Origin: Pedobacter sp. MR2016-24
Lineage (GTDB): Bacteria; Bacteroidota; Bacteroidia; Sphingobacteriales; Sphingobacteriaceae
DNA length: 64,000 nucleotides
Assembly: GCF_026239655.1 (NCBI RefSeq)
Contig: NZ_JAPIVO010000003.1
Span: 558,001-622,000, forward strand
Direction: 5' to 3'
How positions within the stretch are numbered: the first letter of the stretch is position 1; each line of letters starts with the position of its first letter. Below are positions 18,009 through 22,344 of this stretch, in pieces. A model generated the notes under the pieces. It was not told the DNA's origin and searched no databases. It saw only the letters and a list, made by a program, of their open reading frames with translations. Made by a program: the position numbers and the translations under genes.

Positions 18009-18719
18009 ATGAGCGAAGAACCAGCACGCCGATCCTCCGGACTTTTACAAAGCCTGAAGAAATTAATCTTTGAAGATAGCCCGGAGCCTTCAGTTCCTGA
18101 ATCGGGTATCCCATCTATCCCGCCTGCAGTGGAAGCGCCGTCAACCGGAAATGTAACTATTAACCCGAATATTGATCTCAATCAAAACCCCACAGTTTTG
18201 CCATCAACAGATGTAAAGCAGATGAAGGTTAAAGTACTGGAAATTCTTGAGCGGCTAAATGAACCAGGTCTTGATTTTTTCGAAGTATGGAATGCCGCAG
18301 CCCAGATGGGTAGTGTGGATGCGATCTCAATCAAAGCGGCTTATACCTCTTTGAAATATGTAGATAAAAACCTTGATAAAGAAAAACTGATTACCAGTGC
18401 CCGAAAATATGCCGGCAGTCTAAAAACTATTATAGATAAAGAAAGCAGTCAGAAACAGTTGCAAAAGCAGCGTATTGAGCAAAATCAGGTTTCAGAAAAG
18501 GCAAGTCTAAGCACTGAAATTGAGTCTATTGAAAGAAATATTGAACAGTTACAGCAACAGTTAAATACGAAACAAAAAGAACTAAAAAATATAAACAGTA
18601 AATATGAACCACAGCTAAAGGATATTGATCATAAAATTGCTATTGGCAATACCGCTGTAACCGAGGTGATTAATGATATCAATACAGCCATTAGTATAAT
18701 TGAAACCAACATAAACTAA
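18009..18719 (+). CDS. Unknown helical/coiled-coil protein, first gene of unknown operon
   Basis: 236 residues, not recognised. Residues 1-75 are low-complexity, Pro/Ser/Asn-rich and probably disordered (includes SVPESGIPSIPPAVEAPS). Residues 75-140 look like a compact helical domain (VKVLEILERLNEPGLDFFEVW...). Residues 145-236 form a long coiled coil rich in Gln, Glu and Lys (EIESIERNIEQLQQQLNTKQ) that ends in a hydrophilic helix. There is no signal peptide or membrane segment, so it is probably cytosolic. It is followed after 8 bp by a membrane coiled-coil gene and then by an ASKHA-like gene, which suggests a single complex. It may be the soluble partner of the second protein. Confidence 0.8.
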   Translation: MSEEPARRSSGLLQSLKKLIFEDSPEPSVPESGIPSIPPAVEAPSTGNVTINPNIDLNQNPTVLPSTDVKQMKVKVLEILERLNEPGLDFFEVWNAAAQMGSVDAISIKAAYTSLKYVDKNLDKEKLITSARKYAGSLKTIIDKESSQKQLQKQRIEQNQVSEKASLSTEIESIERNIEQLQQQLNTKQKELKNINSKYEPQLKDIDHKIAIGNTAVTEVINDINTAISIIETNIN

Positions 18720-18727
18720 AAACAACA

Positions 18728-19837
18728 ATGGAAAACAAGAGTGAATTTGTAAACATACCAGCAGAACTGAAAAGTCAGCTCCCCATATTTCAGGTGCTGG
18801 GCGATCATTTACCAAGTCAGCTGCAGACCCCTGAAGCTAAGAAAACAATTTCCAGCATATTCTTCTGGGCACTTATTTTAGGTGGTGCATATGCCTTCTT
18901 CCGGTTTTTGCCTATTATGTTAGAATATGCAGCAAAAAGTATTCTGCTTGTTGTTTTCAGTATCATTCTGATTGTTTTATTATTACTGGCGCCAAAAATC
19001 ATTGCACTGTTACACCGCCTGGGAACTATCCTTCTTTTTAAAGGTGAAAAATCAATTATCCGTAATAATCCTATTGAAACGCTTCAACTATTATCAAAAG
19101 ATGCAAAGGACACCTTAAAACGTGTCAAAGAAAAGATTACGAATGTTGACGGTGTACGTATTGACATGATTCAAAGCGGCGAAACTGCTCAAAAAACAGC
19201 AGAAGAAAAATACACTTATGCAAAACGCTTTACCGTAGAGGCTGCCAGCCTTGATGAAAAAGGCAAACAGGAAATAGCTAACAATAATAATGAAAAAGCA
19301 AATGAATATGGCAGAGACGCTAAAGAAACGCGCACCAAAGCTTTTTTATTAGGTAAAGAAGGAGAATCTGAAGAACAGAATGCCAGAAGTTATGTTCAGT
19401 ATGCAAATCAGTTTGCCAAAGTACTGGAAGTATTAAAAGATAACGAAAGCGCCGCCAGAATATATGTGAGTACATTGGATAGCAGTATCTCTATTATCTC
19501 TAAAAAGCTGGAAGCTACGCAGAAGATGAAAAATGCTACTGATGGCTTAGCAGAAGTATTTAATATCAAAGATAGCTGGGTATTCCAGGAAGCGATGAAT
19601 GCAGCGACAGGTGCAATAAGTCAGAATATTGCCTCTATTCGTTCCAACCTTGATTTCCTGGATCAGAATAATAACATTACTGTAGGTGGCGCGCCATCGC
19701 AGGTAGAGTTGGAAGATTTCATTAAAAAAGTAGATGAGCGTAATCTTAAAATGCTTAATGTAAGTCAGATGAGCGACGCATCATATGAGCTAAAACCAAA
19801 TGAGAAAATGGATAAGGGCTTTACTTTACTTGATTAA
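18728..19837 (+). CDS. Unknown two-TM protein with long cytosolic coiled coil
   Basis: 369 residues, family not recognised. A ~40-residue N-terminal segment is followed by two hydrophobic helices (about 42-66, SIFFWALILGGAYAFFRFLP, and 70-98, ILLVVFSIILIVLLLLAPKI). A ~270-residue Ala/Glu/Lys-rich helical part follows (ISKKLEATQKMKNATDGLAE). With both TMs near the N-terminus, N- and C-termini should lie on the same side, most likely the cytosol. The helical part recalls PspA-type membrane-stress proteins in composition and length, but I cannot show homology. It is the middle gene of the operon, 8 bp after the first gene and 25 bp before the third. Confidence 0.82.
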   Translation: MENKSEFVNIPAELKSQLPIFQVLGDHLPSQLQTPEAKKTISSIFFWALILGGAYAFFRFLPIMLEYAAKSILLVVFSIILIVLLLLAPKIIALLHRLGTILLFKGEKSIIRNNPIETLQLLSKDAKDTLKRVKEKITNVDGVRIDMIQSGETAQKTAEEKYTYAKRFTVEAASLDEKGKQEIANNNNEKANEYGRDAKETRTKAFLLGKEGESEEQNARSYVQYANQFAKVLEVLKDNESAARIYVSTLDSSISIISKKLEATQKMKNATDGLAEVFNIKDSWVFQEAMNAATGAISQNIASIRSNLDFLDQNNNITVGGAPSQVELEDFIKKVDERNLKMLNVSQMSDASYELKPNEKMDKGFTLLD

Positions 19838-19862
19838 CACATAAAATTAAAACATTAAAAAC

Positions 19863-20858
19863 ATGGAAGAAAAATCAATCTGGGCCCAATTACGCTGGCC
19901 GATTAAAGCAATCATTATCGCTATTCCCATTATTGGAATAGGTTACTGGGCTTTTGATAGCGGTAAATTTGATGCAGCTAGTCATAAAAATGGATCCTTA
20001 ACTGATAGTATTGCTGGTAGGACTGATACTTCGGCAGCAAAAACTACAGATGATAAAAGAACTTTTAACTACAGCCCCGAAAAGCCTGTTAATGGTGAAT
20101 ATAAAGGCGTTGTAGAAGTAGGTGCCTCGGGCTTTAATTCTTTTGTAGTAAATATTGATAAAGAAAAAAACTGGGAAATTATCTCCAAAGATTTTGGCAA
20201 ATCATTTGTTTACGAAGGCATGGCCAATACCGCCGACATCCGTACAGGTTTGAAAGATTATATAGGTGCAATGTTCGATAAAGGTGTTAAGTCAAGAAAT
20301 ATCCATTTTGTAATTAGTTCCGGCGCGCAGAAAGAGCCAAAAACGGCCTTGATAAGTTCCGAACTGAAGAAAATGGGATATGTTGTTAATCTTGTTACAG
20401 CCGAGCAGGAAGGTAAGCTTGCATTGAAATGTGTATTACCTAAGTCCTACTATGATAACTCTTTTGTCGTGGATATTGGTTCGGGAAACACAAAAATTTC
20501 CTGGATAAGTGGAGACGTAAAATCCGCTGAAGCACCAGGTGCAAAGTATTATGAAAAAGACTTAAAAGACGATGCTGTATATGCTGAGGTAAAGGCTACT
20601 GCAGAAAAAATACCGGCAGCAAAACGGGAAGTATGCTTTATCATTGGCGGTGTTCCTTATGAACTGGCCAAACAAATCCGTAATGGAGAAGAGCGATTCA
20701 CTGTACTAAACGATCCTGAAAAGTATAATACAGATAAGGTGAAGATTAAAAGTGGCGTTAATATCTATAAAGCGATCAAGGATGCGACTAACTGCGATAC
20801 CTTCGTTTTTGACTGGGATGCTAACTTTACTATCGGATTCCTATTGTCTGTTAAATAG
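19863..20858 (+). CDS. Membrane-anchored ASKHA (Ppx/GppA-like) protein, unknown function
   Basis: 331 residues. One N-terminal TM helix (15-30, KAIIIAIPIIGIGYWA) and a ~50-residue polar linker lead to a domain with the landmarks of the actin/Hsp70/Ppx-GppA fold. These are a phosphate-1-like strand-turn (VEVGASGFNSFVV, 84-96), VNLVTAEQEGKLAL (175-188) matching the IISGEEEARL block of Ppx/GppA, phosphate-2 (FVVDIGSGNTKISWI, 201-215) and an adenosine-like GG motif (VCFIIGGVPYELAK, 257-270). The phosphate-1 Asp of Ppx/GppA is Glu85 here. The domain is shorter than in Ppx. Basic residues before the TM would by the positive-inside rule put the domain in the periplasm, which is hard to reconcile with ATP binding. 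Polyphosphate or nucleotide chemistry is possible but unproven. Confidence 0.8.
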   Translation: MEEKSIWAQLRWPIKAIIIAIPIIGIGYWAFDSGKFDAASHKNGSLTDSIAGRTDTSAAKTTDDKRTFNYSPEKPVNGEYKGVVEVGASGFNSFVVNIDKEKNWEIISKDFGKSFVYEGMANTADIRTGLKDYIGAMFDKGVKSRNIHFVISSGAQKEPKTALISSELKKMGYVVNLVTAEQEGKLALKCVLPKSYYDNSFVVDIGSGNTKISWISGDVKSAEAPGAKYYEKDLKDDAVYAEVKATAEKIPAAKREVCFIIGGVPYELAKQIRNGEERFTVLNDPEKYNTDKVKIKSGVNIYKAIKDATNCDTFVFDWDANFTIGFLLSVK

Positions 20859-20932
20859 AAACAGTAAATCAAATATATTTACGCTCCTGACCAGTTGAAC
20901 TTTAGTTGAGTATATAATGTCTGGTAAATAGT

Positions 20933-20973
20933 AAAGAAAAAAGTCTGGCGCCTATGGCACCAGACTTTTTTCT
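20933..20973. terminator. Bidirectional terminator between the unknown operon and mnmE
   Basis: A nearly perfect palindrome: AAAGAAAAAAGTCTGG on the left mirrors CCAGACTTTTTTCTTT on the right around GCGCCTATGGCA. An A-run on one side and a T-run on the other serve both strands. It ends at the mnmE stop codon. Confidence 0.9.
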
Positions 20974-22344
20974 TTACTTCCCGATACAGAACTTACTAAA
21001 GATATTCGCCAACAAGTCGTCATTTGATACTGCACCGGTAATCTCACCAAGGTAATAAAGCGCTTGTTTAATATCAATCGCCAGAAACTCTGAAGTTACC
21101 GGGTTAACCAAACCTTCACTCACACTGCTCAATGATTCCTGGGTTCTTCTTAGTGCTTCTACGTGTCTGATATTAGTCACCATCGTATGGCTTTCAGAAA
21201 GTTTATCTCCTACTGCTGTTTCGTACAGCAACTCTTTCAGCTCTTCGATATTGTTATTCTCTTTGGCAGAGATCGAAATGAACTGTATGTCGGAAGGCAA
21301 ATTCAACTCTTTAATTCTATCCCTATAGGTCAGGTCCATCTTATTGGCTACAGCAACAAAAGCTATATCTGGTTTATGTAAGTTGGCAATATCTTCCCTG
21401 ATTTCAGCAGAAGTAAGGTTCACTACATCGAAAAGGTACACAAGAACGGCCGACTGGCTAATCTTCTGCATGGTCTTCTCCACTCCTATCGCTTCAATAG
21501 TGTCTGTCGCTTCACGTATACCAGCGGTATCAATTAAACGGAAGTTGATACCGTTAATATTTAAAACTTCCTCTATGGTGTCCCTGGTGGTTCCTGCGAT
21601 CTCGCTGACAATAGCGCGGTCTTCGTTTAACAATGCATTTAACAAAGTTGATTTCCCTGCATTAGGGCGACCAGCAATCACGGTGTTAATGCCTTCTTTG
21701 ATCACATTCCCCAATTCGAATGAGCGGATCAGCTTGTTCAATACCAGCGTAATCTTGTTAATCAGTTCCTGTAATTGATCCCTGTTAGCAAACTCTACAT
21801 CTTCTTCGGAAAAATCAAGCTCCAGCTCAATCATAGAAGCAAAATGGATTAGCTGCTCTCGCAATACATTTAATTCTGTACTGAATCCGCCTCTTAGTTG
21901 ATTCATGGCTACACTGTGCGCAGCTTGTGAATCGGAAGAAATCAAATCAGCCACCGCTTCTGCTTGTGAAAGATCCATCGCGCCGTTCAGGAAAGCACGG
22001 AGTGTAAATTCTCCCGGTTTAGCGGCAGATGCCCCCTTTTTTATCAATAAATTTATAATCTGCTGGATGATATAGTTTGAACCATGACAGGAGATTTCCA
22101 CTACGTTTTCTTTGGTGTAAGATTTTGGACCTACGAAGAGGCTGACTACGACTTCATCTATCACAACTTCGCCATCCTTGATTAACCCGAAATGCAGGGT
22201 ATGTGTAGCTTGGCTGAGCAGGTCTTTACCTTTAAATACAGAATTGGTGATGGCAATAGCGTCTTTTCCTGATAAACGGATTACACCTATGGCGCCTGCG
22301 CCAGGAGGGGTTGATAAGGCTACTATTGTTTCATTTGACATCAT
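20974..22344 (-). CDS. mnmE: tRNA uridine-5-carboxymethylaminomethyl modification GTPase MnmE
   Basis: 456 residues, the normal MnmE length, from the ATG at 22344 (a second ATG is the next codon). The frame is open for 73 further codons upstream but without family sequence. The N-terminal tetrahydrofolate-binding domain (ETIVALSTPPGAGAIGVIRL), the helical domain and an inserted G domain are visible, with P-loop GRPNAGKSTLLN, DTAG and NKMD. The C-terminal CIGK motif (FSKFCIGK) has the catalytic Cys. With MnmG it modifies the wobble uridine of certain tRNAs in the cytosol. A -7 element lies about 30 bp upstream. Confidence 0.97.
   Translation of the reverse strand: MMSNETIVALSTPPGAGAIGVIRLSGKDAIAITNSVFKGKDLLSQATHTLHFGLIKDGEVVIDEVVVSLFVGPKSYTKENVVEISCHGSNYIIQQIINLLIKKGASAAKPGEFTLRAFLNGAMDLSQAEAVADLISSDSQAAHSVAMNQLRGGFSTELNVLREQLIHFASMIELELDFSEEDVEFANRDQLQELINKITLVLNKLIRSFELGNVIKEGINTVIAGRPNAGKSTLLNALLNEDRAIVSEIAGTTRDTIEEVLNINGINFRLIDTAGIREATDTIEAIGVEKTMQKISQSAVLVYLFDVVNLTSAEIREDIANLHKPDIAFVAVANKMDLTYRDRIKELNLPSDIQFISISAKENNNIEELKELLYETAVGDKLSESHTMVTNIRHVEALRRTQESLSSVSEGLVNPVTSEFLAIDIKQALYYLGEITGAVSNDDLLANIFSKFCIGK

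Follow-up and report, generated by a model that had tools for sequence, protein, structure and literature searches.

What could an operon do whose three products match no Pfam or NCBIfam family above cut-off, when one of them carries the motifs of an exopolyphosphatase behind a membrane anchor? The question is raised by a 64,000-nucleotide stretch of Pedobacter sp. MR2016-24 (contig NZ_JAPIVO010000003.1, positions 558,001 to 622,000; the window, throughout), in which the co-directional genes 1, 2 and 3 (Table 1) are separated by gaps of 8 bp (gene 1/gene 2) and 25 bp (gene 2/gene 3). Our leading answer, to which we assign a probability of roughly 45%, is that the trio may form an envelope-stress or ligand-sensing membrane-remodelling module, with a periplasmic Ppx-fold domain replacing a solute-binding/OmpA part. 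Four computed results support this proposal: the fold of gene 3, the conserved linkage of the genes, the exchange of gene 3 for solute-binding/OmpA proteins in the same operon slot, and a bridge to PspA through a family that we call c25. The topology of the window proteins, the ligand, the direction of signalling, oligomerisation and a role in stress are what we infer.

The three reading frames, both gaps and a downstream terminator had been read from the letters alone in a preliminary description of this DNA. The frames and gaps were borne out, and a hairpin 3' of the trio was found at -27.7 kcal/mol (z -9.1 versus shuffled sequences); its stem has a mismatch, and it was not listed by a simple terminator scan. 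Genes 1 to 3 are thus presumably read as one transcript. Hydropathy gives two membrane segments in gene 2, one in gene 3 and none in gene 1, in agreement with the anchor on gene 3 and the two transmembrane (TM) segments on one partner that had been described.

The gene 3 product resembles Ppx/GppA in fold. When GTDB contigs were scanned for gene 3, at least 80 loci were obtained; counts given here out of 80 refer to those listed, typed by profiles. A 42-row alignment was made from 41 of the 80 loci and the window (near copies, L078 and L080, which have broken frames, and the fragment L081 were left out), and in it the relatives are 50-86% identical to the window protein. The structure model computed from this alignment has a mean predicted local distance difference test (pLDDT) score of 84.2. 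Its residues 76-331 match H. pylori PPX/GppA (VIA Z 22.8, root-mean-square deviation 3.1, 245 residues), the model matches Z. mobilis PPX (Foldseek E 2.6e-13), and the next fold match is Legionella NTPDase1 (Z 18.5). In the model, this region is a complete acetate and sugar kinase/Hsp70/actin (ASKHA) fold of the Ppx/GppA type, with Ppx/GppA closest, as the preliminary description had proposed. At the sequence level, the EQEG segment aligns to A. aeolicus Ppx in a profile search of PDB sequences (E 0.003). The Pfam Ppx-GppA family (PF02541) scores 20.2 bits on window gene 3 (E 4.4e-4), below its cut-off of 27, and is matched at E<=0.01 by 17 of the 42 family members; among more distant relatives, L132 (29.3 bits) and L135 (56.7 bits) pass and L134 (18.7 bits) stays below.

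The motifs that had been noted in Ppx/GppA order, with Glu at phosphate-1, are invariant in all 42 sequences: E85 (phosphate-1), E183 (EQEG), D204, G206, S207, N209, T210 and K211 (VDIGSGNTK) and G262-G263, with G208 in 41 of 42. D. radiodurans PPX has the catalytic acids D7, E114, D136 and E143, and PMC11234463 reports that the Ala mutant of each is less active. The gene 3 family has Glu, Glu, Asp and Lys at these positions (42/42), so that two acids are kept, the Mg-site Asp is changed to Glu and the last Glu is changed to Lys; this mapping goes through a modest alignment to the genome's own Ppx (E 7.6e-4, 25%) and rests on motifs and fold, the D. radiodurans numbers being placed via shared motifs without direct alignment. 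Judged by Ppx, the nucleotide pocket, which was expected to be intact if the first reading held, is not intact: Lys takes the place of E143 throughout. Because the last Ppx Glu is Lys, we prefer to see the domain as a sensor that would bind its ligand rather than as an active exopolyphosphatase that would hydrolyse it. Gene 3 could nonetheless be catalytically active in the periplasm, as a phosphatase of the exopolyphosphatase or NTPDase type that scavenges phosphoanhydrides or clears them away, with genes 1 and 2 serving only to place it in the membrane. The full Ppx/NTPDase fold, the retention of Glu183 and Asp204 in 42 of 42 sequences, the mere change of the Mg-site Asp to Glu, and the fact that secreted NTPDases share the fold all fit such an enzyme. 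We consider it unlikely in view of the Lys in 42 of 42 sequences at the E143 position, where the Ala mutant of the D. radiodurans enzyme is less active (PMC11234463), and since scavenging needs no linkage to gene 2, yet the two are linked in 48 of the 80 loci.

On which side of the membrane does this domain lie? Several relatives carry export-type N-termini (both signal peptides and lipoprotein signals being called by visual inspection). Four, in two genomes of another family, start with lipoprotein-like signals ending FFSC or CFSC; these two genomes are without gene 2/c25, and one (G401) has PspA. The lipoprotein-like copies occur two each at L132 and L133, about 5 kb apart; just before the second comes a gene resembling a small mechanosensitive channel. 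Seven distant relatives (L134-L139, L145) start with a secretion-type N-terminus; four of them (L134, L138, L139, L145) are larger, with an extra stretch between this N-terminus and the ASKHA domain, which in L134 gives a weak tetratricopeptide repeat match. In the secreted-type relatives examined in full, GNTK is kept in 5/5 and the phosphate-1 Glu in 4/5, L134 having Asp.

A further indication comes from eight loci (L175, L176, L177, L208, L217, L220, L221, L222) in which gene 3 is replaced, after gene 1 and gene 2/c25, by a 510-613 aa protein with an N-terminal anchor. An OmpA domain was found in 6/6 of these proteins scanned; an NMT1-type solute-binding domain is above cut-off only in L177 and sub-threshold in L176. 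ABC ATPases were detected at L177 and L220 by Pfam and at L217 by BLAST; the permease is sub-threshold in L176 and without a match in L220, and for L175, L208, L221 and L222 the transporter genes were assigned by position or likeness to these loci. A profile of the non-trio gene 3 anchors was searched against 510 anchored N-termini; the set contained gene 3 copies and, entered twice, the eight solute-binding/OmpA proteins. The best matches outside gene 3 were L177 (8e-6), L217 (2e-5), L208 (9e-4), L175 (0.027), L220 (0.037) and L176 (0.038), together with one unrelated L179 protein (0.012). OmpA domains act in the periplasm. Since non-trio gene 3 anchors resemble those of OmpA-domain proteins, gene 3 would be oriented N-in/C-out, and its ASKHA domain is likely periplasmic.

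Some observations weigh against this placement. The anchor profile omitted the trio-type anchors, and L221 and L222 are not among the matches listed. Lys and Arg around the gene 3 anchor hardly favour one orientation (mean 2.3 before and 2.0 after; of 87 proteins, 45 have more before, 28 equal numbers and 14 fewer), and positive-inside charge around gene 2, as judged in L002, favours none. This indecisive charge, the cytoplasmic look of genes 1 and 2, and a kinase/phosphatase signalling triad beside gene 3 in 17 loci would suit the nucleotide- or polyphosphate-gated membrane scaffold first proposed, its ASKHA domain then lying in the cytoplasm. The lipoprotein-like and secreted relatives, and anchors like those of the solute-binding/OmpA proteins, make cytoplasmic gating by ATP or polyphosphate improbable in our view. 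A possible C258/C311 disulfide was also considered as proof of export and proves nothing: both Cys are present in 26, both absent in 11 and one is present in 5 of the 42 rows. The argument was dropped because the 11 rows without both are those of triad loci, perhaps one event.

The bridge from gene 2 to PspA is indirect. After its two hydrophobic segments, gene 2 continues with about 270 mostly helical residues, and the Pfam family PspA_IM30 (PF04012) finds no match in it. The c25 family occupies gene 2's operon slot. A c25 profile of 18 sequences (its own members match by construction) finds 17/17 gene 2 sequences, the window protein at E 3e-7 (Z 5000), and 13 of 30 PspAs, the best at 4e-10; the best decoy among 2,393 reversed open reading frames (ORFs) and reversed family members reaches 5e-4. 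The best c25-PspA match covers the PspA N-terminal DP region, and profile comparison of c25 with PspA gives 83-91% as against 0.5-1.4% for reversed controls. L219 scores with both the gene 2 profile (4e-15) and the c25 profile (2e-11), as do L220-L222 with both. PspA_IM30 itself gives 29.0 bits on the c25 protein of L176 and 23.3 on that of L177 (cut-off 33.9).

Much also speaks against a PspA relationship. Direct comparisons with PspA are negative for gene 2 (30 PspAs of its class; hhalign 1.1%) and for L219 (1.0%). The soluble parts of gene 2 and c25 match weakly (E 0.002-0.004, 9-13%), so the TM region contributes much of the full-length score. The c25 profile misses 17 of the 30 PspAs, classical ones included; the nine best of the 13 it finds belong to one genus, which weakens both the PspA relation and the leading answer. 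In the reverse search, a PspA profile finds 5 of the 18 c25 proteins, the best at 1e-5. For gene 2, the computed model is of poor quality (pLDDT 65.7); its structural matches range over chemoreceptors, SMC, Vipp1 and ESCRT-III, and none falls below E 0.01. Gene 2 could therefore be a two-TM coiled-coil protein unrelated to PspA, its similarity reflecting coiled-coil convergence: direct comparison fails, the coiled-coil background of c25 versus gene 1 reaches 53% probability over 38 columns, and the best PspA matches come from a single genus. The gap between the c25-PspA scores and their reversed controls, the coverage of the DP region and the bridging position of L219 are harder to explain by convergence, which we regard as somewhat unlikely. 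On balance gene 2 is probably a remote, membrane-anchored PspA relative through c25; the likeness to PspA-type scaffolds suspected at the outset has thus gained indirect backing for gene 2 via c25 and fails in the direct comparison. Among 13 genomes sampled from the genus, that of the window being one, none gave a PspA match. A C-terminal tail, often [FY]xxLLD, recurs in gene 2 (window 19811-19834) and many c25 proteins and might be a docking peptide; an LLD end is present in 43 of 63 gene 2/c25 proteins, fragments included.

The genomic distribution indicates how firmly these genes belong together. The preliminary description had called for a survey of whether all three genes co-occur, and the complete trio was kept together in 48 of the 80 loci; with relatives 50-86% identical, its recurrence means that the window arrangement is not a chance observation. 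The 48 include two Niabella trios (L078, L080) with frames broken in genes 2 and 3, which may reflect assembly error or decay. Other arrangements are gene 1-c25-gene 3 (5/80, gene 3 of L073 being some 1.4 kb farther off), vWA-PP2C-kinase-gene 3-gene 1 (17/80), gene 2 and gene 3 without gene 1 (1/80), gene 1 and gene 3 alone (1/80), gene 3 without nearby partners (7/80) and an edge fragment (1/80). The seven partnerless copies, and the 17 of 80 loci from which a gene 2 homologue is missing, count against the leading answer. In the one triad scanned (L051), Pfam confirmed VWA, PP2C_2 and Pkinase. Pedobacter-type gene 3 copies, 71-72% identical, lack genes 1 and 2 in the examined stretch at L041 and L104-L106. 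By titles and taxonomy the 80 loci are Bacteroidota, except L053, which is labelled Williamsia and falls among triad and Segetibacter rows in the tree, perhaps through misbinning.

Gene 3 is patchily spread. It matches 18 of 395 phylum-sample genomes, 8 at E<1e-100; of the 395, 8 have full-length gene 3, 16 gene 2/c25 and 6 both (Fisher 4e-8, uncorrected for kinship). A gene 3 tree of 87 rows (L078, L080 and L081 left out; six rows added beyond the alignment's source set) places the 17 triad copies in one clade (100/99), near c25-carrying Segetibacter copies (fork 86/91, partly unresolved). Since all 17 fall in one clade, the triad was probably recruited once. In the genomes G378, G468 and G500, gene 3 and gene 2/c25 lie at separate places, which suggests that they may work in trans; in G512 one contig bears an L220-type gene 1-gene 2 operon and another a distant gene 3 relative. 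Pairs of gene 1 and c25 standing alone were seen at L210, L213-L216 and L218, with two pairs each in G378 and G468, and c25 occurs without a recognised gene 1 at L178, L209, L211 and L212.

Gene 1 is the usual soluble coiled-coil partner of the module, sharing the locus with gene 3 in 71 of the 80 (48 trio, 17 triad, 5 c25 and 1 with gene 3 only). Its detection in triad loci used a profile that includes triad members, the first link having come from pairwise BLAST clusters. The protein consists of an amphipathic stretch near the N-terminus, a Pro/Ser-rich linker, a small conserved region (NxPGxDFFEVWNAA) and a coiled coil; family searches with it gave generic coiled-coil matches only. By its hydrophobic moment, the amphipathic stretch SGLLQSLKKLI is a possible membrane-binding helix.

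The triad and the scattered occurrence also invite the thought that the trio is a phage-defence cassette or a mobile stress cassette. PMC11090510 describes a link of TerY-P triads to restriction systems and an action of TerY-P-like modules against phage; gene 3 is found in only 29 of 301 genomes of the window's family, Pedobacter trios have at least four different flanks, and a Hymenobacter plasmid copy has vWA and PP2C genes upstream. The varied flanks fit a trio moving as a unit. PADLOC, however, finds no model for genes 2 and 3 even at E up to 1 (no search for defence genes was made in the flanks) and matches gene 1 with two models over its coiled coil (9e-5, 0.003); in the L051 triad only the kinase is matched, to defence kinases at 4e-6 or weaker. 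With no match in 50,697 phage records as well, we judge a defence role very unlikely. A phage origin was rejected on the same zero of 50,697 records and on weak PHROGs matches (best 0.017). Plasmid cargo was likewise rejected: 2 of 72,556 plasmid records match, both from Hymenobacter and covering 75-79% of gene 3. In the first, vWA and PP2C genes lie upstream, gene 3 is annotated as two pieces, and the gene table, which is incomplete, shows no kinase; neither vWA, PP2C nor a kinase appears in the gene listing of the second.

Returning to the envelope-stress or ligand-sensing module, we propose the following mechanism. The two-TM hairpin of gene 2 would sit in the inner membrane with its long helical domain in the cytoplasm, where, as a probable remote relative of PspA/Vipp1 (ESCRT-III superfamily), it may assemble on the membrane's inner face. 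Gene 1 would be its cytoplasmic coiled-coil partner and may touch the membrane through its N-terminal amphipathic helix. Gene 3 would span the membrane once and hold its Ppx/NTPDase-fold ASKHA domain in the periplasm, where it could bind a phosphoanhydride ligand such as polyphosphate, a nucleotide or a pyrophosphate-containing envelope intermediate. This state might then pass through the anchor and the short cytoplasmic tail, tuning assembly of the gene 1/gene 2 layer. This tail is strongly conserved in trio copies (around STW.RLRWP.KA) and different in triad copies, which would fit a contact with gene 2 in the trio. In a broader and rather doubtful form of the proposal, the Bacteroidota would have a family of envelope-exposed ASKHA phosphoanhydride sensors (E[IV]G..G ... 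GNTK) controlling an anchored ESCRT-III-like remodeller across the membrane; solute-binding/OmpA sensors could take the sensor's place, and a TerY-P-like kinase switch that of the effector.

Table 1 Coordinates of the trio and its features in the window
Feature	Position	Strand	Basis or remark
Gene 1	18009..18719	+	ORF, 236 aa
Gene 1 amphipathic stretch, residues 10-20	18036..18068	+	hydrophobic moment, without control
Gene 2	18728..19837	+	ORF, 369 aa
Gene 2 TM1, residues 40-58	18845..18901	+	hydropathy
Gene 2 TM2, residues 71-89	18938..18994	+	hydropathy
Gene 2 helical domain, residues 100-308	19025..19651	+	c25 profile matches residues 32-308
Gene 3	19863..20858	+	ORF, 331 aa
Gene 3 membrane anchor, residues 13-31	19899..19955	+	hydropathy; putatively N-in/C-out
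Gene 3 ASKHA domain, residues 76-331	20088..20855	+	structure model and fold matches
Glu85, phosphate-1 position (Asp in Ppx)	20115..20117	+	Glu in 42/42
Glu183, equivalent of Ppx catalytic Glu (DrPPX E114)	20409..20411	+	42/42
Asp204, equivalent of DrPPX D136	20472..20474	+	42/42
Lys211, where Ppx has Glu (DrPPX E143)	20493..20495	+	Lys in 42/42
Strong hairpin with flanking A/T runs	20932..20976		probable bidirectional terminator where gene 3 and the convergent mnmE end

Around the trio, a luciferase-like monooxygenase is encoded upstream, and the convergent MnmE, followed by an AI-2E-type transporter (Pfam), downstream. TerY-P triad genes were not found by Pfam among the trio and three flanking proteins, the only ones scanned, and a PP2C protein search of the window's own genome gave no match (no positive control was included). 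In 16 Sphingobacterium loci, two opposite-strand genes follow the trio; in the one scanned (L011, 7066-9346) they encode a Band_7_1/SPFH and GYF_2 protein and a zinc-ribbon-like protein (sub-threshold).

These results point to an undescribed variant of bacterial membrane-stress machinery. PMC11237479 states it to be unknown how assembly is regulated in PspA homologues that have no AAA ATPase associated with them, and the trio offers a tractable case, in which a probable PspA relative is tied to a putatively periplasmic Ppx-fold domain in a genus whose sampled genomes have no recognisable PspA. It would also add to the locations and uses known for this fold of Ppx/GppA and give TerY-P-like signalling a candidate membrane partner.

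Compared with Ppx/GppA (PF02541), gene 3 shares the whole N-domain fold, the catalytic Glu and the phosphate-2 Asp, whereas its family has an anchor or signal, a phosphate-1 Glu, and Lys for the last catalytic Glu. With the NTPDases (CD39, Legionella NTPDase1; Z 18.5) it shares the ASKHA fold but only about 15% sequence identity, and it has its own GNTK motif. NTPDases with this fold are secreted or extracellular. The TerY-P triad is described in PMC11090510 as vWA, PP2C and a kinase with a zinc ribbon; vWA, PP2C and kinase genes likewise precede gene 3 in the 17 triad loci. In B. subtilis pspA-ydjGHI, the SPFH protein YdjI is linked with PspA (PMC8581546), and an SPFH-type gene beside the trio resembles this arrangement in one genus only, Sphingobacterium; unlike in B. 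subtilis, Band_7_1 was not found in the window's genome.

The closest known system is a phage shock protein (PSP) variant described in 2024, in which PspA or TM-containing Snf7 homologues occur with ABC transporters and PBPB-OmpA proteins (PMC11237479). The trio is like it in having a TM-anchored, probably PspA/Snf7-like protein and an operon partner with a putatively periplasmic ligand domain. Loci L175-L177, L208, L217 and L220-L222 resemble the variant by its published description, their identity with it being a lead. The window trio differs in its Ppx-fold ASKHA domain and in having gene 1 as the usual partner; solute-binding/OmpA and ABC transporter genes are not in its operon, where gene 3 fills the slot and the terminator follows. 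The main text of PMC11237479 has no occurrence of ASKHA, HSP70 or TerY, and no paper combining at least three of PspA, ESCRT-III, exopolyphosphatase, ASKHA, NTPDase and TerY was found among the open-licence literature. As far as that literature shows, the ASKHA-type and TerY-P-type operons appear to be new variants of the transporter-linked PSP kind.

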